Origin: Aselliscus stoliczkanus
Lineage: Eukaryota > Chordata > Mammalia > Chiroptera > Hipposideridae
Direction of reading: 5' to 3'
DNA: 64,000 bases
Assembly: GCA_033961575.1 (NCBI GenBank)
Contig: CM066729.1
Location: forward strand, 30,352,501 to 30,416,500
Shown: piece after piece, positions 37,301 through 63,701 of the stretch
Layout: every line of letters starts with the position of its first letter
Position numbering within the stretch: position 1 is the first letter of the stretch
Notes under the pieces: model-generated
The model's database searches: none
Told to the model about the DNA's origin: nothing
What the model saw: the letters and a program-made list of their open reading frames with translations, nothing else
Program-made: the position numbers and the translations under genes

Positions 37301-39285
37301 GGCAGGATGGCTCAGCTAAAAAAAAAAAAAAAAAAAGAATATCTTTGATGTATGATTTTTTTTCCCCCCCCTGGAATGAGGGTTGCCTGGTTTCCAGAGA
37401 GATCTCTTTTATAAGTCAGAAAATAAAAGGTTTCAGCCCATATTATGAATTCCTGTCTTTAATATCCGATTATTCTTTCTTCTAGAATCAGAGTTGCCTG
37501 GCTTCCAGAGAGGTCTCTGTGAAGGTAAGACACAACACTCTTTCCTCAAATGCAATGGGGGGTGGTGGGGGAAACATTTCCAGCCCATCTCAATAGTTTC
37601 TTTCCCATTTTGTCCTATCACCCAGACCCTGTGCCTTCGTAGTATCTATGAGGACTTGAAGATGTACCAGGGAGAGTTCAAGGCCATAAATGCAAAGCTT
37701 CTGATGGATCCTATGAGGCAGATCATTCTGGATCAAAACATGATGGAAGCTATTGATGAGCTAATGCAGGTAAAGCCTTCATCCTATCAGTGAGAGCAAT
37801 TTCTTCAGGCCGAGACAGCCAGCCAGAGTCCTTGATGGGGAGAGGCCTGAAATCCCCTTCTAAAACCCCTGCAGAGCTATATAGCCTTGATAGGGCCCTC
37901 TAGAGAAAAGGCAAACATGAGCAAGTCCAATTAAGAAAAGCAGCCAGCTGTCTGTTGACCAAATGGTATGCACCAGGCTCCCTGCAAATATTTTCATACG
38001 TTTTCTTCTGTCATCCCCACAACAATTATATGGGCTCTGGACAAAGGAGGAAACCACAGCTTAGAGAGTTAGCCACTTGTCTGCAGCCATACAGCTTGTA
38101 AGTGGCAGAGCCAGGATTTAACTCCCTGTCAAAAGGCTTCCACTACACTTCTCACTCACCTGTACAGGCTCCAGGATGGGCTTATGAGGGGCCAGCATGC
38201 CTATCTGCAAATAATGCTCAAGAAAACAAGCAGGGTTAATGCCTGGCTATGACCCATTCTGAATCAAAATTGTGAACGCAATAAAAGAATGACCTCTTAC
38301 CTGGAGATCCCCACAATGTGTTTCATAGACAAGAACTTGTTTTGTAATTTCTGGAGCACCACAGCACACGATGCTAATACAAAACATAGCAATATTCACT
38401 TAGGGAAGAGCAGGGTGAGTGCCATGGTGACCAGTGCATGGGATAAAAATACAGTGTCAGAAATCATTGTCAAAAAAGGAATTTGTTTTTATTTCATTCA
38501 TTCATTCATTCATGTGTTTGTGTGTGCCAAATTACTTGTTTGAAAGGCAGTGAATGTCATGCAAGTATCAAAGAATGTTACCATCTAGAGAGTTGTGAGG
38601 AACAAGTGGAAGTAGTGATCCTTGTGCAAACTGAAGGTCTTGTATGGTGTGGTCAAATCAAAAGGCGAAAACTGGGAGATCCATTGCCAGATTATTTAAC
38701 TGACATAAATGAGTGTTTCCAGTCAACAGGTCTGTTAATGATGAAGCATTTCAATCAATAGCCATCCATCACCTCCCTGTTCTAAAAAGAACTTAGCTAC
38801 TTAATGTAACATAAGAATTCATTAGATATTGCAGCAGATGTCATCTTCACAGAATTGTTCCTTTCTAAAATGCAACTTCCCCTGATGATTTTCTAAATAG
38901 CTTTAAGGGTCTTTCCAGAGCTCACTGAAGATACATGTGTTTAGATAATGAGATTTCTTCTCTTAGGTTCTGCCTGGCCATCTGGCTGGGAGTAGCTGGG
39001 CTAGGTTTAGGAGATGTAATGAGAGAGGCGGGTTGCAGGCTCTGAGATATGTGTCGGCTTCCCCCATTTTTACAGAGGGATGTTTTAACTTTGGAATACC
39101 ATATATGTCATGCGCAATGTTTATTCTCCTAGGTCCTGAATTTCAACAGTGAGACTGTGCCCCCAAATCCTTCCCTTGAAGAGAATTTTTATAAGACGAA
39201 AAAGCAGCTCTGCATCCTTCTTTATGCTTTCAGAATTCGTGCAGTGACTATCGAGAGGATGATGAGCTATCTGATTTCTTCCTAA
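32785..39285 (+). CDS. IL12A: Interleukin-12 subunit alpha (p35), five coding exons, 206 aa
   Basis: Secreted four-helix cytokine chain that pairs with IL12B (p40) to make IL-12, and with EBI3 to make IL-35. Coding exons by GT-AG junctions: 32785-32800, 33502-33656, 36747-36860, 37486-37524, 37626-37769, 39133-39285 (the first is only 16 nt; with it there are six coding segments). All phases join to an open frame of 206 codons. The N-terminus is a signal peptide (hydrophobic residues about 5-17). Recognisable p35 blocks include AVSNMLQK, CTSEEIDHEDITKDKTSTVE, SIYEDLKMYQ, AKLLMDP, DQNMMEAIDELMQ and FRIRAVTIERMMSYL. Human p35 is 219 aa from the matching start. The difference is mainly one lost 14-codon exon (fossil at 37375-37416), plus single-codon deletions in the exons at 37486 and 39133. 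Human Cys37 (from memory) is Arg40 here (CGC). Exon 3 ends in ATG before gtattg, where human has Lys. The family call is certain; expression is not shown. Confidence 0.97.
32960..33150 (-). repeat. MIR SINE in IL12A intron 1
   Basis: Antisense MIR: ctcatttaatcttgaaacag, tgcgaaaactgaggctcc. A second MIR-like scrap (cagtcacttcaccgcttgg) follows to about 33235. Confidence 0.6.
34135..34413 (-). mobile_element. Short-form SINE with expanded CTTT/CT tail, IL12A intron 2
   Basis: Antisense head at 34321-34413 (ggcattgtcactgg…actcggccggccc). Its tail has grown into about 185 bp of (CTTT)n with an inner (CT)n block at 34242-34278. The long SFFLSFFL frame here is an artefact. Confidence 0.9.
34511..34632 (+). 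mobile_element. Short-form SINE, IL12A intron 2
   Basis: Head ggggccggccaagtggcgcg, cttgggaagccagc, cggttcgggtcccac, tail AAAATAAAAATAAAA. Confidence 0.92.
35370..35850 (-). repeat. MaLR/MLT1-like LTR piece, IL12A intron 2
   Basis: Antisense pattern tttgctattgctgctgttac, ttattatcttacagacctgg, aatcaaggtgtctgcagagc, typical of old MLT1-class LTRs. No coding part is present. Confidence 0.5.
35890..36170 (+). mobile_element. LINE-2 3' end, IL12A intron 2
   Basis: ttccctctgcctgaaatccc…agtacctagcatactgtctggcacac, the L2 3' signature. Confidence 0.6.
36985..37140 (+). mobile_element. LINE-1 3' scrap, IL12A intron 3
   Basis: actgaactgtacacttaaaaatag then gttaagatggtaaatttt, the L1 3'UTR end. Confidence 0.7.
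37183..37336 (+). mobile_element. VES-type SINE 38 bp before the fossil IL12A exon
   Basis: ttggccagccaagtggctcag head, tail of 17 A. Flanked by GAATTAATATCT / GAATATCT, an imperfect target duplication. It separates the old exon 4 acceptor from all but 38 bp of its intron. Confidence 0.85.
37375..37416 (+). pseudogene. IL12A: Fossil of IL12A exon 4, splice sites destroyed
   Basis: A 42-nt stretch reads N-E-G-C-L-V-S-R-E-I-S-F-I-S in the correct phase and matches the human exon encoding NESCLNSRETSFIT. The bases before it are ctgg, so the acceptor AG has become GG; the bases after it are ca instead of gt. The frame is still open, so loss looks recent or the stretch is used in some other way. 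The only AG near the acceptor is inside the exon (37379-37380). Using it with the internal gt at 37415 would give a 34-nt exon and a frameshift. Skipping keeps the frame, because both flanking exons are phase 0. Confidence 0.85.
37960..38135 (-). repeat. MIR SINE, IL12A last intron
   Basis: gacaaaggaggaaaccacag, agccatacagcttgtaagtgg, gagccaggatttaactcc. Confidence 0.65.
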
Positions 39286-46970: not shown

Positions 46971-49900
46971 TCATCCTCCACATTTCATTTTGCCTGTAAG
47001 AAACCTAACAAAACAGAGAATCAAACAAATTCAAGGATTCATTGTTGGAGGTAAAAGGGACACGTTTTAAAATAAAATCATTTGTCCATTTCAAAAAGGA
47101 ACTCCTGGAAGTTGCGGAGTTTTCCTGAACTTAAGAGAAGCCATTCCAATTTAAAGGCTATGGTTATAAGACACTAAAACGTCCTGATAAAAATACAAAA
47201 CTCAGCCGATTAACTGGGTACTTTGATTACAGGAGGGTATACAATATTGGTAAATTGGGGTATGTGGGGGTGGCTTGTTTGTCTTTAACTCACAGAAGAT
47301 TTTTTTTCCCTATTTAATGAGAGGTTTGGACTAATAAGTTTTATGATCTTTTTATTGCTAAAAAAAATGTCAAAAACCCTTTTATATTTCTAATGTATCA
47401 GCAAGTTCAGTGTCAGTGAGGTCAGGAGCAGATAAAAACAAAGTAACTCATTACAAAGGGTTTGTGACAGATTTTCGAGCCTTCCTTTGACAGAAGACAC
47501 TGATTCTTTGGTTATCACAGCACAGTGACCGCTGTTGTCAACAGGCAGAAGCACCTGCATGCACATGAGCAGATTTCCAAATGCGAACCTTAGTAATTTG
47601 CATAACTTCAACATATCCGAAGATAAGAATGAAGAATTTTATGTTGAAACCGCTATTCTGCTTGAGGCTTCTGCATCCAAAGCCTACAGGGCGAGTCCAG
47701 AAACCTTGTCCACCAAGCCTGAAAGCATCCTGATAGATCACCGATTGCTTTTACTTTTCATATAAACTTCTGGGGCTTTTACACACTTTTACAGCCTTTT
47801 TGGAAAAAAAGTCCAACTAGAACTCCAAACCAAAACCTCTCTGGTATTACTGAGGGTTCTGATATGTTAACACCGTATTTGTTAACTATAGTAACGATGT
47901 ATAATAATCAAAGTTTTGAATTGGTTTGACCTCGGGTATAATAGCGTGCTAAATGAAACCACAAAAGAAGTGCTTAAAAACAAAGGAAGGAACCCTGTGG
48001 TTTTCTGGATTGAGACGACCAACACTCCCTTCAGCCTCTCTGGGATCCGCTTTTTCCCTTCCCCTCTTTGCCGCCTGAGGTTCATTGGTGCCACCCGGTG
48101 GCCTCTCCGAGAACTACTTCCGAGCACCTCGGAAGGCCCAGCAAGCTCAATGCCACCAAGTTGTCTCAAGTACCATGACATTCCTATCTGTCCTGTACCG
48201 AGCCTTACTACCTGCCTGAAGTTTTACATGCATCACCTCTTTTCACTCTCACAACAGACCCGGACACAGAAGTTTTTGCATCCATCGGACAGATAGGAAC
48301 AGAGAGGCTTAACATTAGGTTAAGAATTTGCTTAGTCACAAAGCTAGCCAGCGCTTGAGTGGGGATCTGAACCCTTCCTCCGGCTCCATGCACAAATCAT
48401 TATTACTTATTATAGATTACAGCAGTTCACGTACTTACTGCTACATCTGCATAATTATCTGAACCCAAGCTTACACATAACCAAGCAACACATTCTATAG
48501 AAATTGGCTCTTCATAAAGACACAGCTTGATTCCATGTAAATGACAAAGATAATTTCCTGCTCACCTTCCAGCACAGCGTCAATTTCAGCAGAGACGCTC
48601 TTCAGGCAGTTATATAAATTCTGGACAGTGGCATTACTCTGCTGCTTTTCTTGCCACTTCTTCAGCATCCTAAACTTACAGGTTCTATCATTTTCTTTCT
48701 TCTCCCGGATAGCATCAATATCGTTAATATCCAACTCCAGATTGACAATGGCGATTTTTACCCACTCCTTCCCGAACTTCTCAGCAAGGGTAATCAACTG
48801 AGTATCTGTTACCAGGGTCTTCGCTCCATCTAAAAGCAGATGAGGAATTCAGTAGTTCTTCTCAACACTGCAGTTATTAATAGCAACTTACAATGAAAAT
48901 GTATTCTGCTTCTATAAAAAGGGATACTATGGGGTCAGCCGAGTGGTGCTGTGGTTAAGCGCTGGTTTGGGTCCCACATATGGGGCCAGTGACACTGCCC
49001 TCAAAAAAAGGATTTATAACTCTAACTGCTTTTAAAGTGTATTTAAATGCAAAAAAAAAAAAAAAAAAATCCCTGCTTTCCCAAATTAAGGACTAACGGG
49101 AGTTATTTCATATAAATAACATTGAACTGGGGTATAAGATTTACAATAATTCAGGGATGAGAATGTTTTACAGAGCAGCACAAATTAGGTTGGAATTAAA
49201 AAATTCAGACACCAAGTGATTTTGGTGGCTCAAAAAGAAAAATACATAGCTTTGCCCTTGCCCACCTCTGTGTCTCTATCTAAATGTTCGCACCACTAAA
49301 GGAGGCAGCCAGGTATCTGAACTGCAGTCTCCATTATGCCAGGTCCTGGCATAAGAGGGTAAAGCACACTCCACAGAAACGTCAGGTACCTATAATACCT
49401 CTTGGTCTCTAAGGAAGTGTCACAATCTTGGAAGGGCATATCTTTTCCAACACAAACAACCGGCCCCATAAAAATATTAGCCCTATCATTAAATCAGATT
49501 TTCGACAACACTGTTATTAGCTGGTTGTGCTATGGTGTGGGCATGCTCGCTGGTTGCAGCTTCTTCAGGTAAAGATCCTCAAGGCATTACAAACCCTGGA
49601 GAGGACATTAGAAAGGAGTGAGAGGTAAGAAGACCTCCTGCCCCTTCTCCAGGACTGCAATGCCTCTGCTCATGTAAAGCCAACGATTATTTAATGTGAA
49701 TCTAACATGTGTTCTTGGACCCTTCCCCACCTCAGTTTCCTCTCCAACTTTCTCAAGAATGGGTTCTTGAAGACGGCCCGCGCCCTCTAGTGGTTTCTTG
49801 GCACATGACCGATGTCTCCTCGCTCTCAAAACCCCCTGTCAAGGAAAACCGCACAGGAAGCCTAGGAAAAATGTTCTCAAGTTCTCAAGACCATCCCAAA

Positions 49901-52900
49901 ACCCACTGTATCAGTCTCTGAGCTGAAATTTTAACAAGTTCTCAAAGAGGTTCTGTTAAAAGTTGAGCACTGACCATATTTTGAAAAGCAACACCATGAT
50001 ATGCCATGTCTGAAACTACCAGGCTAGTGATAGGCTATCTCAAGGAATGCTGTGGGATTACCTAAAAAAAATCAATCTTTATTAATTTATTTTGATCCTA
50101 TATTGTCAACTCCAAAAAGGTTGGAAATCCTTAATCTCTCCAGGTGCGTTTGATTATTTTAATTCTATTTCTAGCTACTTGGCATTGGAGCTAATTTTAA
50201 ATAGCCAAATCATTGCATGAAATAAGAAAAACCTGTTCTCTAAATCAATTTAATATAAAATTGTGTCCCATTTAGTTATAAGATGAATAAGTTCTTAGGA
50301 TCTAATGTACAGCATGGTGACTACAACTAATAATACTGTATTAAAAAATAATTCCAGAGCCTCATTTATTTTGTTGAATGAATAAACATTTATATAGTGA
50401 TATACAGTAAAATCACCCATGTCATCCTCAAAGGCTCCTGCTCTAGAAAGTAAATATCTTATTTCACTTTAAAGAGTTTATCTGCTTTTAGAGAGTCATA
50501 TCTTCTTACAATAATAGTAAAATAAAATGTATTTTGATGAAAGGATTAATTTGGAGAGTTCCATGAGGTCCCTAAAAGCTTGAAACCTTGTCTCATATAA
50601 TTTGTGTCTGGGTTTTTAAACAAAATTGTGAATTCTTGCTGGACTTGCATTTTGAGCTACACACTCCATCTTCTGGCTCCTTAGAGTACCGTTAAGTGTT
50701 TTAAATCTCTTAATTTGTTTTCACAACTACCGGGCCTTGGTCTCTGCCATTTAATTGAAAAAATTTGAGCTCCGTCTCCAACAACTGAGCCGGGGGTGCT
50801 CCACTTGGATGTAGCTTAGAGCTGTGAAGCCAGTCCTTCACTCAGTCAGTCAGTGTTCACTATGGTCTACGTAAAGGCACCATGCTCTGTGCTGTAGGAA
50901 ATGTAAAGTGGACAGGCTATGACCCTGCCCTCAAGGGCTGCAAGGGACCCTCTTCTCCCCGCTCAATTCTGTTAAGACTGAGTGAATGGCTGGAGTGGGG
51001 AATCAAGCTAAAAAAGCAGGCTGAGGCAGGACAAAGAGGACCCTTCTGCACAACTGAGGAGGCTAGGACACAGGGAGGATAGGCACAACGGGGGCGTGGT
51101 TCCACAAAGATTGACAGCAGAGCATGTGTGTTGCATAAACATCAATGGCTGACCTCGGGGAGAATACTTTGTAGCCACTGATGACACTGTTACAAACCTG
51201 AGGTGTCAATCATCTTCATTCTTTTATCACAGGCCTCCTCATCAGGTAGGGTGCTGCTCCGTTTTCGCCTCCTCTTACCTTAAAAAAAAAAAAATCAACA
51301 AATTTAGTTTATGTTTATTATTTTCTGATCTCCGTTATTTATCTTTATTACTATGTTTTTATTAATCCATCAAGTTTATTATTTTCTAGAGACCTTCAAT
51401 CTGTTTTGTTTTTTTTAATCATCATTCAGGTAGAAACTGAAAATGGCTTCTAAGGTTGCTCAGCAGATAAAGAGAGTTACAGAGCACTTAACAGATTCTT
51501 AATGAGACCACTTTTGCGCAACAGGATAAAAGTCATAGCGGATGGAAGGAATAGAAAAGTGGGTTAAAACTCAGTTTAATGTCTAGTGACTAACACTTAC
51601 CACCTGTGCTGCTTTTCGAAACGTTCTGGCTCTGGTCTTGCTGCACCCAGTCACCTGTTCAAGTACAATGAGCATCCATTAGAAAAAGTGGTATGAAATT
51701 TGAATTAAAGAAAATCAGTTTGTGGGGGCCAGCCGAGGGGCGCATTGGTTAAGCGCTGGTTTTGGGATGCCAGCGGCCCCGGTTCGGATCCCACATGAGG
51801 GCCAGTGACACTGCCCTCTACAGCTAACAACAGCTCCACCTGGAGCTGGGCTGTGCGAGCCCCGGTGATGGTGTGGGCTGCAGCCCCTGCTGCAGTGGGC
51901 TGCCATAGGCTACAGTGAGTGGTCCGCAGCCAGCGTGAGCGGCTGGCAGCCAGTGTGACCTGCCAACAGCCGCAGTGAGCAACATCCAGAGACCAGCGAC
52001 CGATCTGCCTCATCCGGGAAGAGCGCAATGATGATACCAACAGCGAAGCAACATCCTCCGCAACTAAACTGAAGAACAAAAAGACAGCAACTTGTCTGTT
52101 CCCCTTCCCCGATTCCCCAACGCTGTTCCCCTCCGCCAATTCCCCAATAAAATCTTAAAAAAAAAGAAAAGAAAATCAGTTTGTGAAAGTATGTGAAGCT
52201 CCAGCATCTTGGAAACCTCTCAGAAGTTCAAATATGCGTTTGGGGTTTAATTTGGTATGTACGCAAATGCACAAGGCTAGACTTTTTGGGATAAATAGTA
52301 AGTACTCTTTCCAACAGATCTTGTTGGGGAAGTGTTTCCCAAATGCAAGTCCTCTGCACACCACTGTCACAAGTTTTGTCATACCCATAGGCCGAGTGAA
52401 AGGTGATTTCCTTAGTATTTCTTTAAATCTATAGCTACTGCACAGAGAAGAACACTGACATCGATTTGCCATATGGACAAGGGAGACATTAAAAATACAC
52501 ATCTTTTGGGCTGGCCGAGTGGCACGGTGGTTGGGCGCTGGCTTGGGAAGCCAGCGGCCCAGGGTTCGGGTCCCACATGTGAGGGCCAGTGACACTGCCC
52601 TCAAAAAAAAAAAAATATTAAAAAAAAACAAAACCACACATCTTTTTATTGTACATCCACCCCAAACCACATCATAGCTTCTCATTCTGTGCTTTGGAAA
52701 ACTCTGTACGTGGGGTTTTTTTGGTCCTGTCATTGTGATTCAACACCACCTTCCTGGTGTGAAATAGCTCCGGCTCTGCGAGGCGCCGACGACTCACGCA
52801 GGATACAGGTGGCTTTAGTGAAGGTGCCTTACGAGTGATGACTAATCTCATGTAACCATTAACTTAGGCCAAAAATAAATAAATAAATATGGAGACCAGA

Positions 52901-55900
52901 AACATCTTACAATGCAGAGTACTAGTAAAGAAGTTTTTTTTGTTTTGTTTTGTTTTGTTTAAATCAAACATAGCAAGAAGTCTTAGGAAGTGGTCTTTAA
53001 AACTCCCAAGAGACTTAGTTTTAGTCCAGAATGCATGTTAAATATCTCTATTACTACAGAGTTGTGGTGGCTGAAAAGGAACATCTTTCAGGTTCATTTT
53101 ATTGGAACAAATCAATGAATACCAAGAAAAACAATACAATCCACGACAAGAGTCCCAACTAGACTCCTTACAGGTTAAGTAATTTTAGCTTGGAAAAAAG
53201 GGCTTGTTTCAAACTGGCTAACTTAAGGGTATAATTTTGGGAATAAGAACCAATCACATCTACAGGAAAGGCTCATGCTTAAGCTAGAACTGAGAATTCC
53301 AAAATAAATAGATCAGGTTTCATTTCTAGAGTATAAGGGCATGACAGGAAACACAGACTCCACACATAACCCAATAGATACAAAAGATACGAGCTGAAAA
53401 AGGATTCAAATGTTGTATAGATAAAGGGGTTTTCAGAGAACAACAAATCCTCCATGTTATGGCATCTGTGCAGCAAAATAAAAATTCTGAGAGATAATCA
53501 GAATAAAGGAGTGGGTGACGGGCCGGTCAAGTGGTGCATTGGTTAGGAGCTGGCTTGGGACGCCAGCTCCAAGCAGCGGGGCCCCAGTTCAGATCACACA
53601 TATGAGAGCCAGTGACACTGCCCTCTTCAGCTAAGGTGGTGAACAACAGCTCCACCTGGTTGCCTCTATAGCTAAGATGGCCAGTGACGGTGTAGGCTGC
53701 AGCCTCTGCTGCAATGGGCTGCCATAGGCTACAGTGAGTGGCCGGCAGCCATCGTGAGCTGCCAAGAGCTGCTGTGAGCGACCATCCAGAGGCCGGCGAC
53801 CCATCTGCCTCGACTGGGAAAAGCGTAATGATAATATCAACATGGACCAGTGAAGCAAAGTCCTCCACAACTAGACTGAAGAACAAAAAAGGACCACAAC
53901 TTGTCTGTTCCCCTTCCCCGATTCCCCAACGCTGTTCCCCTCCCCCAATTCCCCAATAAAATCTTAAAAAAAAAAAAAAGAGTGGATAACAACTCCTTCA
54001 ACGTCCTGCTACTGGCACTTACCACTTGTGTTGCTTTTCAGAATGATACTGTAGTCAACACTGGACTATGTGTGATACTGGGAAAGAGTTAAGATATCAT
54101 ATCCCAAAATGCAACTGATGCAAAAATAATTTCTACTACAAACATGTGGTACTGGCAGGAGCGACCTCAGTGCCATTTGCAGATGAGGACACTACAGCCA
54201 CACGTGGGTGAGAGACTGGTCCACAGTCCCACATTGAGCTGGTTCATTCTGGAGCTGGAACTGGAGTCCATATGAACTCACTCCCAACCCAATGCTTCTG
54301 TCTCCCTTTTGGCTCCAACATGTGATCACTATACTCATGTCTGTTATTCTATAAATTTCCTTCAAGTAGAATTGAAAGTCAAGCTCAGATCTGCCTGAGG
54401 AGGGCAGCTATCTGGTGTCTCCTGAGACTCCCCTCTCCACAGGGGGTCCCACATGGACCCCCCCTCCTACCTCTCTCGGAGCAGAAGAGGACGCTAAAGA
54501 GGGGGTTGTGAGAGAGCTTCCCAGCACCAAAATATTTAACAGGGAGAAGACAGCCCCACAGCTATAATCACAGTGAGTGGGAGCTACCTGGTGAAGACCC
54601 AAGAGGCAGAATCAGGCAAATAACACATGTAATCAGCCAAAATAGAGATATAGATCTAAATCCAGGTCACGGAAGAGACGTTGTCACAATACCCCTAATT
54701 CACAGGAAAATATCTGAGATCCAAACCTCAGAACAGCAAAGGAAAAAAACAATTCTGCTGCCCAGACCCGCCCACCACGGGAAGCCTCCACACATCTCCC
54801 TGAACCAGACCGACCTCCAGGGACTGGAACGTGGGTAACTGAGAGCCAGAGCTGGCACTTCTGTTCTAGGAGCCAGGGCCTTTGTCTCTCTTCATCAGAT
54901 TTTTAAATGTTATGAAGACAGGTCAGGCCATTACTTTATTTGCTTTCCCATCCCCACTGCCCACAAACCAGTTTTCATTCAAGATACAAAACACTTACAT
55001 TCTCTTAGTTTCGCACTCCATACAACTTCCTGGGAATCTGATTCAGCCAACACTAAATGAAACTCCATTGGTTGCTCCAAATACACTTCAATATAACTTT
55101 TCAATTTTAAAAGTGAACCATCCACAAATTCAATTTCCTTTAAAAAAAAAAAAAGTGATTTTTTTTTAAATGGAAAAGTTGCATTGATTGACTGACAACA
55201 TAAATATCAAATAAGGAATGATGATAATTAGGAGGGTTAGTACTTATTTGAATGCTCACTGACCTTTTGACCTTGGAAACCTCACTCCTTAATCACAGAC
55301 CCTCTTATTCTCTTGCTTCCAGCCCTTCCTACCCCAACCTCCTTTTCTGCCTCATTGAGGCTTCCAGTCCTTGGCCCTGGTTTTCTATAGCTTAATTTTC
55401 TAGTACTTTTCCAATTTCAATGTTTCATATTCCCAAATAAGAACGTAAGTGTTTTTAAACTTCCTCACCGTTTTTGACCTAGATCATTCTACAATCTGAA
55501 ACATATTCAACAACATTTATAGAACTACGCAGGGTGTAGTTCTATACTCATTGAACGCCATCTTCCCCCAACAATTTTTTTTGTGTGTGTGTGGCTATTT
55601 TATGGATAAAGAATCTCAGAGAAGTGAATTAACCTGCCCAAGTCCACCTCTACGAAGTGGTAGGACTGACTGTGAACCCACACCTTCCGACTCCAAAGTG
55701 TGAGCTCTGAGCCACTACACTTTGCCTCCTGCCTTCTGCCGCCTCTGCCCCTCTCCTGACTGGCTAGCAAGCTTGAATGGAGAAATGCATTTAAAAAAAA
55801 CACAGGCATCCCTCATTTTATTGTGCTTTGCTTTACTGTGCTTCACAGATATTATAGTTTTTATAAGATGAAGGGTTGTGGCAATCCTACATGAAGAAGT

Positions 55901-58900
55901 CCATCAGTGCCATTTTTCTAACGACATTTGCTCATTTCATATGTCTCTGTGTCACATTTTGGTAATTCTCACAATATTTCAGACTTTTCCATTATATTTG
56001 TAATGACGATCTGTGATCAGCAATCTTGATGTTACTTTTGTAATTGTTTTGGGGCGTCATGAACCGCGCCCATATAAGCACTTCATTGATAAATGTTGTG
56101 TGTGTTCTGACTGCTCCACAGACTGACTATTCATTCCCCCATCTCTCTCCCTCTGCTCAGGTCTCCCTATTCCCTGAGACACAACAATATTAAAATCAGG
56201 CCAATCAATAACCCTGCAATGGCCTCTATGAGTTCAAGTGAAAGGAACAGTCACACATCTCTCACTTTAAATCACAAGCTAGAAATCATTAAGCTTAGTG
56301 AGGAAAGCATGTCAAATGCTAAGACAATGCCAAAAAACAAGGCCTCTTACACCAAACAGTTAGCCAAACTGTGAGTACAAAGAAAAAGTTACTGATGGAA
56401 ATTAAAAATGCTACTCTGGTGAACACATGAATGATACGAAAGGGAAACAGCCATATTGCTGATACAGAGAAAGTTTCAGTGGTCCGGAAGTGAAATCCGA
56501 CCACAACATTCCCTTAAGCCGAAGGCTAATCCAGAGCAAGTCCCTAACTCACTTCAGTTTTATGAGGCTGAGAGAGGTGAAGAAGCTGCAGAAGAAAAGT
56601 CTGAGGAGAGCAGGGTTTTAAGGAAAGAAGCCGTCTCCATAATATAAAAGTGCACGGTGAAGCAGCAAGTGCTGCTGTAGAAGCTGCAGCAAATTATCCA
56701 GGAGACCAGCTAAATGATTAGTGCAGGTGGTGACCCTAAGCATCAGATTTTCAGTGTAGATGAAACAACCTTACACTGCAAGAATACGTCATCTAGAACT
56801 TTCATGGCTAGACAGAAGTCAATGCCTGGCTTCAAAGCTTCAAAGGACAGGCTGACTCTCTTGTTAGGGGCTAATGCAGCTGGTGCCTTTAAGTTGAAGC
56901 CAATGCTCATTTTCCACATTCCAAAAATCCTAAGGCCATTAAGAATTATGTTAAATCTACTCTGCCCATGCTCTAGAAATGGAACAACAAAGTCCGTATG
57001 ACAGCACTCCTGTTTACAACATGGCTTACTGAACATTTTAAGTCCACTGTTGAGACCTACTGCTCAAAGAAAAGATGACTTTCAAAATACTACTGCTCCC
57101 TGACAACATACCAAGAGCTCTGATGAAGATGGACAATGAAATTAATTTGTTTTCATGCCTGCTAACACAACATCCATTCTGCAGCCCATGGATTAAGGAG
57201 TAATTTCAACTTCCAAGTCCTATTATTTAAAAATACATTTCCTAAGGCTATAATTGCCCTAGATAGTGGTTCCTCTGATGGATCTGGGCAAAGTCAATTG
57301 AAAACCTTCTGGAAAGGATTCACCATTCTAGATGTCATTAAGAACACTTGTGATTCATAGGAAGAGGTCAAATATCAACATTAACAGGAGTTTGGAACAA
57401 GTTGATTCTTCTAACCCTCATGGATGACTTTGAGGGGTTCAGACTTCAGTGCAGGAAATAACTGGAGATGTGGGGGGAACAGCAAGAGAACTAGCACTGA
57501 AAGTAGAACCTAAAGATGTGACTGAATTGCTACAACCTCAGGATAAAATTTTAACAGATGAGGAGTTGTTTCTTATGGATGAGCAAAAAAAGTGGTTTCT
57601 TGAAATGGAATCTACTGGTGAACATGCTGTGAAGATTGTTGAAATGACAAAAAAGGATTTACACTATTACATAAACTTAGGTAAAGCAGTGGCAGGGTTT
57701 GAGAGGACTGACTCCAATTTTGAAGAAGTTCCACTGTGGGTAAAATGCTATCAAACAGCACTGCATGCTACACAGAAATGGTTCATGAAAGGAAGAGTCA
57801 ACTGATGCGGCAAATTTCATTGTTGTCTTATTTTAAGAAATTGCCACAGCCACCCCAACCTTCAGCAACCACCACCCTAATCAGTCAGCAGCCATCAACA
57901 CTGAGGCAAGCCCTTCCACCAGCAAAGAGGTTATGACTGGCTCGCTGAAGGCTCAGATGATGGTCAGCATTTTTTAGCAATTAAGTATTTTTTTAATTAT
58001 AGTATGTATATTATTTGTTAGACATAATGCTATTGCACACTTAACAGACTCCAGTAGCGTGTAAACATAGCTTTTATATGCACTGGGAAACCAAAAAATG
58101 TGTGACTCCCTTTATTGCAGTATTCGGTTTATTGTTGAACAGAACCTGCATGGTCTCCAATGGCGTTGCCACCATTACATTAATCAATGGTCTTAACCAG
58201 TCCCTCTCCTTTTCCATTCCAAATCACTAGCATTATCCTCACAACCTTCAAAGGGTCACCAGGGCCTTGAAAGCCAAGATGACATCTCCTCTGGCCCCAC
58301 TCTTCCCAGAGCCCTCTGCTTTCCAGTTTCCCAGAAGCGATCTCAGGGCCTTGAGCCCAGCTGCACACTCCCATGACCCCAGGCACTACAGCTCCTTCTT
58401 CCAGAGAGGTCATCTCTTCCGGTGATGCTCTCACCCTTCACACCCAAAACAAATGTCACCACAAGGAAAGCCTTCCTGAAAACCCACTGCATTCTGGACC
58501 CATCTCGATGGAAACACCACATTGTATTAAAATTATTTCTTTACAGGACTCTACTATTTCTCCCTCTATGCTGGCATCTTTGGAGGAAAAAGATCGTGAC
58601 TTACTCGTTTTTTTTTAATGCTTAGGCTATTTTCCCAGGCTGACTTGTAATAGGCACTTTTGGTAAATGTCAGTTAAATAAATCATTAATGGTATAAAAT
58701 GAGTAAGAACACCTCAGATTTACATAGAGTTTTACAAACTTCAGAGTGCCCCCAAACCACTACCTTATATGATTCTTACAGCAATCCTGGGAAAGTATCC
58801 CCATTTTTAAAGGCCTGAAATTTGGTTAAGAGAGAGCACACTATTAGACTATTCAAATTCCTCCAGCCACCAACCCCTTTGTATGAAAGAATTCTTGCGA

Positions 58901-61900
58901 CCATTTCCCATCTCCCATCTCCCATCTCCCATCTCTGTCTCTTCCCTCGTACATTCTCGCATTCAGTACACATTGTTCCCTCTCCTAGTGGCTCTTAACC
59001 TTGGCAGCACATTACAGTCACCTTGGAGCTTTAACAAGCCCAGTGCCCTGGCCATTCCCAGAACAATTAAGTCAGTATCTCCGGAAGTGAGAGCCTGCCC
59101 AGACTTCCTTAAAGAACCTCAGGGAATTACATTATGCAGCAAAGGCCAACAACACTGTCCTAAGCAAACCCTTCAAATCATTCCCACCTCCCACAGCAGT
59201 TTGCTTCTTGTGCCTGCTTTGTATAGGAATTTCCTCAGCTGAACTGTTGTTATTAGGCTCCCACAGGCACTGGGTTGGAAAAGACCCTTTGAAAGGGAAC
59301 AGGTCAGTATGCGTGCAAAAATTAAGGAAGCCTGACCAACCTGATAGCTTCTACACAGGGCACTAAGACCCTAATAATATAATAAAATATATTGCTTCTC
59401 ATTTTAATATAATGGAATGAAAACATGTTTTCAACTTTTCCTGCACTATAAAAAACAAACAAACAGAATGAGGTGTACAAAAGGAAATTCCACACAGATG
59501 TCCAAGCTAGATAAGTTATTGTACACATTCAGAGCACATAATGAACATGTTTTAAAAATAACTTAATCATTTATGAGAAACCAAAATCACTTATAAATGC
59601 CATGGTGTGTAGTGAATAGTTTAAATCGAAATGACTGTATGTTCCCATTACTAGTTTTCAAATGCCTTCCTGTAAGAAAAGCCCAGTATCCCTTGTTAGC
59701 AATTCCTTTCCATTAACCTTTAATGCTCTGTGACTTAAGATTAAACTTAAGTTTGTTATTCCTTTGAAGCTAACACTGTTTGAAGAATTTAATAAAATAT
59801 TAAAGAACATTTCAAGCCTTTTATAAAGGAATGTGATTAGTCTATTTTTGCAATGGTTGCAAATAATCCTGAAATTCAATAAGCTACAAGGTTAGCAAAA
59901 CAGCTCTTTTTTCATAAATGGGAAATAAAAAGTGAGAACAAAACACATTATTTTTAAACCTTCCAAATACCATATATCTAAGAAATATACATCCCTGCTC
60001 CTATTCCAAGCTGATTTTTAAAATCTGTACCTCTGGGGTAATATCAACTACCGGTCCACCACTCAGTCTGTATTTCTTCCCATTCTGCAGTAACTTCTGG
60101 CAAACAGGAGGCTTGTCAATTTTCATGAATTTCTTAGATGAGTGCTTCACAGACTTGGAAATATCCTAAAGATGGAAACAGGGTTTGGTTTTGGAATTCA
60201 TCAGCAACAACGGTCAGAACTGTAAGTGTCCAAGCAGTGCAATGCCAGCCTGCCTTATCTTCATTTCCTCCTACAAAATGATAGCAGCGGAGTAACTGTC
60301 AGGGGCTGAGGTGCCTTCGATGTGCACTGCAGGCTCCGACATCGCCCAACATCTTTCTGCAAAAGCACTACAGCCCAAAGCAACACATACGACCTGGGTG
60401 GCACCAATTTGCTTCTAAAGGACTTGAGAAAATTAAATGAGCACCAGCATTATACATTTGTACTAATTACAGGCCCGTCTTGGGAACAGAAAGCAACTAT
60501 TTTACTGGACTCAGTTCCAGTTGACTCCAAATTTGTTTCTACCCAGCACTTTATATGCTTCCATCCTTATTTTCATGTTTCCCTCTACATGGCCCTGGAG
60601 GGGACACTGATTTGATATGCATTGTTTGTATGCCCCAAAGAGGCTAAAGTAATCTTTGGCTCTAGTTCTCTTTGTAAAGCAGCAATATACAGCTGACACG
60701 AAATTTAGGTTTCCTGAAGGCAAAGTTCAAGGAAATGTTTTCCTGCATGGGAAAAAAAATCAACCCAAGAAGAAGAAAGTAAGCATAAAACACCCACCAA
60801 GAAGGACTTCCTGCTGTACCCGTACCCTGCTCCCTATTGTCTATTGGCATTCTGCTCTACCTCTGCTGATACAGTCAGCTCCTTACCCTAGCTTCCCAGC
60901 AAGCACGGGTAATGCCTTCTTAACTAACTGAATTTACTTTAAAAAAGTATAAACTTCAAATTACGTATATATATAAAGCTCACTAAATAACATACTTATT
61001 CCGAAGCTATGCTAATTATATTTTAGATGGGATTGTTTTTAATACCATTTGGAAGACTAGCTTCCCAAGTTGAACATATTAACTTTAATGAATTACTGGA
61101 AGTATATTTTACCTTCTTAGGAAGAAACTAAAAGCCTATTAATTAGTTAATAAAGTTTCTAAACTTTCATATATAATGCTAATTTTAATCAACAGAACTT
61201 ATTTTTAAGAAGACAAGTAAATAAACACTACAACCTAATACATTGGGAGTAGTTTCATGTAAATCCATAACTCAAACTATAACTAATCAATTTTTACACT
61301 TTATTATAGATCTAATGGTTATATTTTTAACTTATGTCAAACTCTGATCTCAACTCTCAAAGTATAGTTTTGAGTCACTATTTTATCTGTCTACTATATT
61401 TACTTCACTTCTCTAACCACCTCTGAGCCATTATAACTATACTGACAATGGCTAACAGTATGAAAGGAAGTTCAGTTACCACTATTCTAATTTATATAGG
61501 AGTTCAAAAAGTGGGCTAAATATCATAGCCTTTTTCTACACTCTGGAAAACGGAACCATTATGAATATCCAAACCCCCTCTCCTTCCCACAAGTACAATA
61601 CATGAATCATGAATATTTCCTGTTACAAAACACAGAAAGCTGGGCCGGCTGAGTGGCGCGGTGGTTAAGCGCTGGCTTGGGAAGCCAACGGCCTCAGTTG
61701 GGGTCCCACATATGAGGGTCAGTGATACTGCCCTCAAAAAAAAAAAAAAAAAAAAAACCACAGAAAACTGAACCCATGAACCACAGGTCAATTTTTATCC
61801 AAAACACTGCTCTGAATGAAATGAGTTAACCTGGGAGGCCCATTCATCTGAGGAGCTTTAGGCCACGGAGAAATCTCAAGTCAGCCACCCTACATTTGAT

Positions 61901-63701
61901 CCAATGACCTCAAACGTCTCCCCAGTGTATTCCAGAGCAAGTGCTTCTCACACTCTGAAGTGTGTATGACTCCCCCCCGCCCCGCAGGAATCCTGTGGAG
62001 TGCAGGCTCTGATTCTACAGGTCTGGAGTGGGGCTGAGGTTGTGCTAAAATTTTAAGAAGCTCCCAACCGATGCCGATGATCCTGGTCCCGTGGCCACAT
62101 TTTGAGTAGCAATGTAGCAGAGGATAGCTGGCCACAGCTGTCCATCAGGCAGCCATCTCCAGGCCAGGCCTGCTTGCCTGGGCCAACCCCATCTTTGGAG
62201 AGCTAGTCCCTATCTGTTGTCTTCTTGATACTGCTTACATGTATACACAACCCCACTCCATGGATCTGAGGACTCGGCTACACCCAGGCCTGACCTTATC
62301 GTCTCTGTGGCTGAGTGCCAAATCGGACCCAGGCTGTGGGGGTATTTAACAGGGACAGGGCTACACCTAAACATGGTGTCATGTTTGAACACAAAGTATA
62401 GTCAATATTTATCATTCATTTTTATTGGCTTTACCTTGATGAAGGACTCGTTATTGGTTGCTACATACACACGAAAAGACAAGGATGGATTATGGTCAAC
62501 GACTTTGTACAGAATCACAGCCCCATGGTGGTATAACGCCTCTTCGCTTTGAATAATAGGTCCCACAGGAGAAAGAGAGCTCACATGCCATTTGACATGG
62601 GTTGTAGAATGATCCACAGCATATTCTAATGAGGCCCCAGAACTTCTGACATGTAAGACTTTGAATGTCATTTTGGCGTCATGGTCTGTTAAAATACGAA
62701 GGTAAATTAGCTTTCCAGGTGTTGTGTGGGTTACACACATACTCTCACACATAAATACATGCGCACAACAATTAAAATTTTAGCAAACAAGTACTTACAA
62801 CCCAAGCAGAGGGAATGTGGCAACTGAATGGAGGTAAGACAGGCTGGGTCACATTTAACATCAAACAAGGGTCCCCCAACAGCCCAGGGCTTAACAACCA
62901 GGTCTGCGTATTTGCTCCAGGACAAAATGCAATACTTGATGTCAACTTTTCTGTTAACCTCAAATATCAGGCCAGTTTCCGTGCACTCGTAAATTCCCTC
63001 CATGTCCACCTTCATTCTGCATTGGACAGATAAGAACATCTGTTCAGTCCTAATGTTTGGTTAGGAGAGAACTTCTTAAAATTATTTATGTTTTTAATTT
63101 CATTCAAAAACACTAAGGGAACTCTATAGCATTTTGAAGAAGCATTATCAAAGAAAACAATCTACGTAATTACATAAAATGTGTGAAGTTAGTTATGCTG
63201 TTTTGTGTTTCCCCTACTTGGGGTTATTTTTACGCAGAAATTTAAATGACTGATGATATTATGTCTCCTGTATTTAAAATTACTTACAAGAACTGTCCCC
63301 TGGAAAGAAGTCTGGGGGTCACTTTTTCATTGTGTTTCTGGAGAAAAAGTACATAGATAAGTTAAGTAATATAAAAGTAAATGTTTTCTTAAATAAAGCA
63401 TATTAGAGCATCATATTTTATAATTAAAAGATACTTACATTTTCAGCTTTACAGTGTTCACAGTGAGGTTGAATTTTAATAAATTCTAAATGGCAGAAAC
63501 AAAGTTTTACCTATATGAATGTGCTTGGCATTTTCAAATAAAATTTATAAAATAAATATATATGATATGCCCAGATTATAAAATTCAAAGGTATATGCCC
63601 CTCAGCTCTAATAATATTTAAAAGAATATTTTGGAAAACATTTAAATTCATACCTGAATTCAAATGATCTGTGGGCAAGTCTTTATCCTCCCATTCTTTA
63701 G
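46971..63701 (-). CDS. FIIND (ZU5-UPA) plus death-domain protein, 5'-incomplete
   Basis: Minus-strand exons, 5' to 3': 63654-63701, 63439-63485, 63288-63337, 62799-63016, 62435-62685, 60031-60165, 54999-55137, 51601-51654, 51198-51278, 48566-48829, 46971-46993. All have AG acceptors and GT donors, and the phases fit at every join: 435 codons then TGA. Residues about 48-250 follow the FIIND fold of CARD8/NLRP1: YECTETG (57-63), [15 protein letters not shown] (95-105), LPHSLCL (113-119), VLH with His132, SLSPVG with Ser159, KIDKPP, YRLSGG, then EVVWSAKL in the UPA-like part. Residues 314-340 are a basic linker with KRRRKR. Residues about 350-428 are a death domain ([29 protein letters not shown]). 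The tail is GKMKCGG. FIIND proteins self-cleave and release a C-terminal effector; PIDD1 has ZU5-UPA-death domain, CARD8 and NLRP1 end in CARD. This mix is CARD8-like in FIIND sequence but PIDD1-like in its ending. I cannot name it (DTHD1-like or CARD8-like annotations are possible). A scaffold in cell death or inflammation is inference. Confidence 0.85.
46994..48565. other. Last intron of the FIIND-death-domain gene
   Basis: No recognised repeat. A GC-richer patch at 48030-48150 holds the weaker CTCF look-alike. A MIR-like piece (minus) lies at 48210-48370 (gacagataggaacagagagg, aaagctagccagcgcttgag). Confidence 0.4.
48930..49012 (+). mobile_element. Short-form SINE, internally deleted
   Basis: ggggtcagccgagtggtgctg joined directly to gtcccacatatggggcc, lacking the inner hairpin. 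Confidence 0.85.
49013..51197. other. Intron of the FIIND-death-domain gene
   Basis: An L1 3' scrap (agatgaataagttcttagga) lies at 50280-50345, an L2-like piece at about 50840-50950. The rest is unexplained and includes the strong CTCF-like motif at 49780. Confidence 0.45.
49780..49793 (-). promoter_or_regulatory. Strong CTCF-like motif
   Basis: The minus strand reads CCACTAGAGGGCGC, matching the CTCF core CCASYAGRKGGC without a mismatch. It lies in the intron between the death-domain exon and the linker exon, outside recognisable SINEs. A weaker look-alike, CCACCCGGTGGC, lies near 48091-48102. Occupancy is not shown. Confidence 0.55.
51725..52167 (+). mobile_element. Long-form bat SINE
   Basis: Full copy from ggggccagccgaggggcgc to ccccaataaaatctt plus A tail. 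GAAAATCAGTTTGTG is duplicated exactly on both sides, showing a young insertion, about 70 bp upstream of the linker exon acceptor at 51654 in the gene's sense. Confidence 0.93.
52508..52628 (+). mobile_element. Short-form SINE
   Basis: Head gggctggccgagtggcacgg, cttgggaagccagc, ggttcgggtcccac, A-rich tail. Flanked by ACACATCTTTT / ACACATCTTTTT. Confidence 0.92.
52629..53519. other. Intron of the FIIND-death-domain gene
   Basis: Simple runs (AAAT) at 52870-52890 and (GTTTT) at 52940-52960. No exon seen. Confidence 0.45.
53520..53979 (+). mobile_element. Long-form bat SINE
   Basis: Head gggccggtcaagtggtgc to ccccaataaaatctt plus oligo(A). Flanked by GAGTGGGTGAC / GAGTGGATAAC. It splits the duplicated linker-exon flank. 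Confidence 0.9.
54017..54072 (-). pseudogene. Decayed duplicate of the linker exon at 51601-51654
   Basis: The minus strand shows the same 3' end as the real exon (AAAAGCAACACAAGTG against AAAAGCAGCACAGGTG) followed by the same gtaagt donor, and the flanking intron is alignable for about 50 bp past the donor. In the matching frame a TAG falls four codons from the start, so it cannot replace the real exon. A SINE split the duplicated intron flank at 53520-53979. Confidence 0.6.
55803..58163 (+). mobile_element. Tigger1-like DNA transposon, nearly full length, dead
   Basis: Begins CAGGCATCCCTC, the Tigger1 terminus, and follows the element through ggttgtggcaatcctac, ttggggcgtcatgaaccgcg, the transposase region (ttcaaaggacaggctgactc, gcccatggattaaggag) and the 3' part (cactgggaaaccaaaaaatg). 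The terminal repeat at the right end is eroded. The pogo-type DDE transposase frame survives only in pieces (for example 56714-57001 and 57449-57805) with stops and frameshifts between. It lies in the intron between the exons at 60031 and 55137, antisense to the gene. Confidence 0.93.
58164..60030. other. Intron with a hAT-Charlie-type scrap
   Basis: About 58988-59100 (ctcttaaccttggcagcacatt, agtcaccttggagcttt) is like a non-autonomous hAT-Charlie element. A (CATCTCC) run lies at 58905-58935. No exon recognised. Confidence 0.45.
60166..62434. other. Intron with SINE and hAT-type scrap
   Basis: Short SINE at 61641-61757. About 61925-62115 (gtgcttctcacactctgaag, ctgattctacaggtctggagt, ttttgagtagcaatg) looks like a hAT-Charlie non-autonomous element. 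The rest is AT-rich and unexplained. Confidence 0.45.
61641..61757 (+). mobile_element. Short-form SINE
   Basis: gggccggctgagtggcgcgg, cttgggaagccaacgg, ggggtcccacatatgag, oligo(A). Flanked by ACACAGAAAGCT / CCACAGAAAACT. Confidence 0.92.

Follow-up and report, generated by a model that had tools for sequence, protein, structure and literature searches.

A gene model joining a FIIND to a death domain beside IL12A in a bat genome

The gene beside IL12A

The stretch of DNA analysed here, referred to below as the window, is 64,000 nucleotides long and corresponds to C3:30352501-30416500 of an assembly that has 2.19 Gb in 146 contigs. Its minus strand carries eleven exons (E1 to E11; Table 1) which join in phase from 63701 to 46971 and read through 435 codons without a stop, as an earlier reading made from the sequence alone had proposed; the intact splice sites described in that reading are also present, with AG at 11/11 acceptors and GT at 10/10 donors. 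The gene, with its FIIND and death domain (DD), was further said to lie beside IL12A, and a fragment of human IL12A indeed matches plus-strand frames at 37449-37790 and 39133-39282. As IL12A is read from the plus strand and the FIIND-DD gene from the minus strand, the two lie tail to tail (convergent). An Rfam search of the window gave no match.

Table 1. Exons and alternative 3' end of the FIIND-DD gene (window positions; those of the upstream exons are in the same style of numbering)
Feature	Position	Strand	Basis and remarks
Upstream in-frame exon	75199-75168	minus-strand gene	AG/GT sites
Upstream in-frame exon	72324-72280	minus-strand gene	AG/GT sites
Upstream in-frame exon	68570-68529	minus-strand gene	AG/GT sites
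Upstream in-frame exon	64372-64328	minus-strand gene	AG/GT sites
E1, N-terminal part, predicted disordered	63654..63701	(-)	In frame, AG/GT; also in retrocopy
E2, N-terminal part	63439..63485	(-)	AG/GT, open frame; also in retrocopy
E3, N-terminal part	63288..63337	(-)	AG/GT, open frame; also in retrocopy
E4, ZU5 (FIIND) first half	62799..63016	(-)	PF13553, E 2.4e-24 on the E4 open frame
E5, ZU5 second half (conserved His, Glu, SLS site) and UPA start	62435..62685	(-)	PF13553, start of PF23679, NLRP1/CARD8 alignment; preceding intron phase 1, as in NLRP1
E6, UPA first half with KPP motif	60031..60165	(-)	Pfam match; flanking introns both phase 0, as in NLRP1
Alternative 3' end: E6 read-through into intron, stop after VQILKISLE, then untranslated	59401..60030	(-)	Retrocopy alignment past the E6 donor
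E7, UPA second half	54999..55137	(-)	PF23679 match to profile position 116/117; following intron phase 1, as in NLRP1
E8, linker exon, phase 1-1, 54 nt	51601..51654	(-)	Splice sites and open frame only
E9, basic linker exon (KRRRKR), phase 1-1, 81 nt, weak donor GTTTGT	51198..51278	(-)	Splice sites and open frame only
E10, death domain, phase 1-1	48566..48829	(-)	PF00531, E 9.7e-11 on the E10 open frame
E11, candidate last coding exon, 23 nt, ends TGA	46971..46993	(-)	Acceptor and stop only; weakest part of the model

Two acceptors are available to E4. The start at 63016 lies 33 bases after that at 63049, in frame with it and also following an AG, and gives a product of exactly 435 aa; with the start at 63049 the product would be 11 residues longer, still in frame (446 aa, or 501 aa with the upstream exons), and this start is the less supported of the two. 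We adopted 63016 because it gives the better alignment with a retrocopy of the gene (score 1602.5 versus 1578.5, and better in 3/3 scoring settings) and because it coincides in place and phase (2) with an exon start of NLRP1. Towards the 3' end, the lengths of E8 and E9 are divisible by three and both exons have phase-1 borders, so that the frame from FIIND to death domain is kept with or without them, and E10, if it ran on past its own donor, would reach a stop 23 codons later.

Several repeated or mobile sequences lie among these exons. A second copy of the 3' half of E8 with its donor is found at 53980-54100 on the minus strand (local score 44; the best of 200 shuffles reached 30), where no in-frame exon was seen by eye. 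The intron between E6 and E7 holds, at 56714-57805 on the plus strand, open frames that by eye resemble the remains of a Tigger-type DNA transposon. One short interspersed repeat, by eye tRNA-derived, occurs at 51726-51818, 52508-52626, 53517-53625 and 61642-61755, and again near the retrocopy.

With the four in-frame exons found upstream, the gene yields a partial product of 15 exons and 490 codons with no stop. Neither the start codon nor the first exon was found in the neighbouring sequence upstream of the window, and the 99 kb upstream of exon U1 hold nothing that convincingly matches the retrocopy sequence preceding U1. Within the first 102 residues of the 15-exon product there are 11 Asp and 15 Glu (26 acidic residues) together with 17 Ser, and this N-terminus is presumably disordered. 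The four upstream exons encode the acidic lead, which recalls the unstructured N-terminus of CARD8, and contain neither NACHT nor LRR, the first exon being missing from the model.

A spliced retrocopy and the constraint on the gene

Elsewhere in the genome, at about C7:58538060-58539666, there is an intronless retrocopy of the FIIND-DD gene. In it E1-E6 follow the four upstream exons, and at 9/9 junctions the join has neither intron nor indel, so the gene was once transcribed and spliced as modelled from U1 to E6, presumably in the germ line. The retrocopy continues for 630 bp past E6 into what is intron sequence in the gene, as far as 59401, and the stop after VQILKISLE stands at the same place in both; judged from this alignment, one ancestral transcript ended early by read-through past E6. 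Since the retrocopied transcript ends before E7, it is silent on E7-E11 and on the joining of FIIND and death domain in one mRNA. No clear poly(A) tail of the retrocopy was found, nor was a target-site duplication established, the 23-column local match being reached by 218/1000 shuffles.

Gene and retrocopy differ by JC 0.177 in the 3' extension. Taking 2.5e-9 per site and year as an approximate neutral rate, the retrocopy would be some 35 million years old. Over 281 codons we obtain dS 0.199 and dN 0.155, a ratio of 0.78 with a bootstrap range of 0.52-1.23 and 14% of replicates at or above 1, which does not exclude 1. Split by region, and on small counts, dN/dS comes to 1.13 in the N-terminal exons and to 0.67 in E4-E6; because the retrocopy side is free to drift, the latter value, which is not significant, would fit a gene-side ratio near 0.3-0.4. 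Insertions and deletions are more informative. Under the main alignment setting there are 14 in 913 coding bases, nine of them frame-changing, and 17 in the 630-base 3' extension; two other settings give 9 and 12 frame-changing indels. All nine can be placed on the retrocopy side because the frame of the gene is open, and with two neutral sides changing at equal rates the chance of 9/9 falling there would be 0.5^9, about 0.002. Starting E4 at 63049 instead gives 11 frame-changing indels and a dN/dS of 0.82 (0.55-1.29). The suggestion in the sequence-only reading that the gene is under selection is thus upheld in part: the frame-changing indels, all on the retrocopy side, speak for it, but the range of the dN/dS ratio includes 1.

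Domains, cleavage-site residues and family placement

The sequence-only reading had placed a FIIND in the middle of the product and a death domain at its C-terminus, and the Pfam profile search for PF13553 and PF00531 found both there. In the 435-aa product, hmmscan reports FIIND PF13553 at residues 46-168 (E 9.1e-37, 126.1 bits against a cut-off of 25.8), UPA-FIIND PF23679 at residues 173-292 (E 1.5e-23, 84 bits against 27) and Death PF00531 at residues 351-419 (E 9.3e-10, above the Pfam cut-off), and as profile matches all three are far beyond chance. Pfam lists no match to the ZU5 family for the joined product, placing it in FIIND instead, and a CARD is absent both from the joined product and from the 6 other open frames of the window that were scanned. 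The predicted layout is an acidic and serine-rich N-terminus, then ZU5, UPA, a basic linker and a death domain.

By sequence, the nearest solved structures to the FIIND part are rat NLRP1, human NLRP1 and CARD8 (phmmer, 250 residues aligned: E 2e-19, 3.5e-16 and 2.2e-10 respectively). For the death domain the best PDB sequence matches are ankyrin-1 and ankyrin-3, then THOC1, FADD and CRADD; a single-sequence fold of this domain alone (mean pLDDT 46.7, pTM 0.32) was too low in confidence to use. In a DNA search of its own genome the only match to E10 is E10 itself, and the next protein matches have 33% and 29% identity (E 0.058 and 0.082); from their open frames, and from the alignment in the case of THOC1, we take these to be THOC1 and CRADD. 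With no second copy of the exon and next matches at only this level, nothing points to a recent capture of the death domain.

The FIIND of CARD8 and NLRP1 is described as cutting itself at SF/S, with the fragments staying together (PMC3210808, PMC8081665). In CARD8, mutation of His-252, His-270, Glu-279 or Ser-297 blocks or lowers cleavage, the roles given to them being catalytic for H270, tuning of cleavage for E279, stabilising for H252 and nucleophile for the Ser (PMC3210808). When equivalents are numbered by counting from the papers' positions in the alignment, all four are the same residues in the FIIND-DD protein; the position of CARD8 Glu-285 is a Ser. The cleavage motif itself is SLS and not SFS, with Leu at P1 in the place of the buried Phe, and SFS is reported as completely conserved in the FIIND alignment published in 2011 (PMC3210808). 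Self-cleavage is thus likely from the residues present but uncertain, because UNC5b also has Leu at the P1 place and the CARD8 mutant F296H is severely defective (PMC3210808). The predicted new N-terminus after the cut, SPVG, is close to the SPLG/SPMG of NLRP1; according to PMC8081665, the N-terminal loop of the UPA enters DPP9. The UPA also keeps the PP pair that forms part of the UPA-UPA contact.

A FIIND profile search of the genome, in which 12 candidates were scored, gave 7 matches (4 on C13, 2 in the FIIND-DD gene and 1 on C7), which correspond to four loci: the FIIND-DD gene, its retrocopy on C7 and two NLRP1-like genes on C13. The latter lie at C13:10090001-10110000 and 10145001-10165000, on the same strand and about 57 kb apart, and both have a CARD frame (PF00619, E 9.9e-21 and 7.6e-22). 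A CARD8-type FIIND is not among the 7 matches of this one search. Microbats are reported to keep NLRP1 and to have lost CARD8, with orthologues called at >50% identity (PMC10249858), and two NLRP1-like genes with no CARD8 match are in line with that pattern. In one of the NLRP1-like copies the acceptor of the CARD exon is in phase 1, the same phase as that of the death-domain exon; in the other copy the AG of this acceptor reads AA and the UPA has KPL for KPP, and this copy may be impaired.

Between the beginning of ZU5 and the end of UPA, the FIIND-DD gene and both NLRP1-like copies have five introns at the same positions and in the same phases (2,1,0,0,1), which indicates common descent with NLRP1. 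The identity of its FIIND is 28.0% to rat NLRP1 (69/246), 26.9% to human NLRP1 (66/245) and 24.2% to CARD8 (58/240). NLRP1 and CARD8 are 52-54% identical to each other in this region, and because of this difference the FIIND-DD gene seems to fall outside the split between NLRP1 and CARD8, unless it has evolved much faster, a placement judged from pairwise identities. It apparently represents an old FIIND lineage separate from both. Identity with NLRP1 itself was rejected, as the two NLRP1-like copies with CARD exons lie elsewhere in the genome, and so was identity with CARD8, given 24-25% FIIND identity against the >50% rule and Death instead of CARD. We also considered 'Dog_ded', which we take to be an old NLRP1/DEFCAP name, as a prior sighting. 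This too was rejected, as 'Dog_ded' is far closer to CARD8, being given as 47% identical to the human protein (PMC3210808).

Interpretation and relation to known systems

The explanation that we favour, at a probability of about 0.6, is that the FIIND-DD gene encodes a CARD8-like and probably self-cleaving sensor whose released part, UPA-DD, recruits a death-domain adaptor. We infer here that the death-domain exons share an mRNA with the FIIND, and the steps after translation follow by likeness to the known proteins. The ZU5-UPA module would cut itself between Leu and Ser, the N-terminal fragment would remain attached as a lid, and UPA-DD would be freed once that fragment is destroyed. The UPA would then drive clustering of the freed part, and the clustered death domains would recruit an adaptor like RAIDD/CRADD or FADD, in place of the CARD-based ASC/caspase-1 route; judging by PIDD1, RAIDD and FADD are the first candidates to consider. 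Through its basic KRRRKR linker the released part could be directed to the nucleus.

Other explanations can be given for parts of these data. The protein may fold as a ZU5-UPA-DD scaffold like that of the UNC5 receptors, with no self-cleavage, and both the Leu at P1, as described for UNC5b (PMC3210808), and the ankyrin-1 and -3 matches of the death domain, followed by THOC1 and FADD, would suit such a protein; however, the cleavage site keeps its Ser, His and Glu, the Pfam family is FIIND with no ZU5 match listed, and we regard a scaffold as unlikely. Quite unlikely, in our estimate, is that the short form is the main or only product, a lid or decoy of ZU5 and half a UPA, with the death-domain exons belonging to a neighbour or a remnant. 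The sole fossil transcript found did end by read-through of E6, at a stop common to gene and retrocopy, but a single retrocopy may derive from a minor transcript, E7 is open, completes the UPA profile to 116/117 and has the intron place and phase of NLRP1 on both sides, and the death-domain exon has an open frame in a fitting phase and lies on the same strand.

Very improbable is that the gene is a recently dead pseudogene whose frame has yet to decay. A dN/dS against the retrocopy that is not clearly below 1 (0.78 overall, 1.13 in the N-terminal exons, 0.67 in E4-E6) would be expected of one, as would linker and last exons (E8, E9, E11) marked by splice consensus alone; against it, 490 codons run over 15 exons without a stop, AG/GT is found at the modelled introns, and none of the nine frame-changing differences from the retrocopy breaks the gene (about 0.002).

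Beyond the sensor reading, it is a tentative and somewhat doubtful idea that the gene is a third mammalian FIIND lineage in which, as in a CARD8-like tripwire, a pathogen protease cuts the presumably disordered lead and UPA-DD starts a death-domain pathway and not an inflammasome, and that it has been retained in a genome where one FIIND search showed no CARD8. The gene may also keep an older ZU5-UPA-DD layout, from which NLRP1 and CARD8 would have arisen when one phase-1 exon was swapped for another; since the CARD and death-domain exons both have phase-1 borders, the origin of the NLRP1/CARD8 architecture can be tested directly. Should the gene be functional, a CARD/caspase-1 output would not be the only one open to FIIND proteins that sense proteases, and the loss of inflammasomes in lineages of this kind would have to be reinterpreted.

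A recent paper states that a CARD8-like gene ending in a death domain is absent from mammals, and no mammalian FIIND-death-domain gene is named in the titles and abstract openings of the open-licence literature that we searched; in public annotation the gene may well go under an automatically assigned label. A different fusion, of FIIND to TRADD-N domains, is described in PMC8195603, and in the accounts of NLRP1 in PMC12436146 and PMC5142783 that protein is described with a CARD only.

Among known systems, CARD8 has the same disordered N-terminus, FIIND (ZU5-UPA), four residues important for cleavage (equivalents of His-252, His-270, Glu-279 and Ser-297) and single C-terminal death-fold domain, although it has SFS and a CARD where the FIIND-DD gene has SLS and a death domain, and FIIND identity is 24%. 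NLRP1 resembles the FIIND-DD gene in the positions and phases of the five introns, as compared within this genome, in the SP at the predicted new N-terminus, in the KPP of the UPA and at 27-28% identity, but has NACHT/LRR and a CARD, whereas the FIIND-DD gene has a death domain and shows no NACHT/LRR in the four upstream exons, its first exon being absent from the model. PIDD1 likewise places a death domain after ZU5-UPA and is described as cleaving itself (PMC3210808); it differs in its LRRs and HF/S sites, set against the Pfam FIIND type and SLS here, and the death domain of the FIIND-DD gene matches PIDD weakly (E 0.13). UNC5B and the ankyrins, finally, have the order ZU5-UPA-DD, UNC5B has Leu at the P1 place and the ankyrin death domains are the best PDB matches, but these are netrin receptor or ankyrin-repeat proteins, whereas the FIIND-DD gene has no listed match to the ZU5 family.
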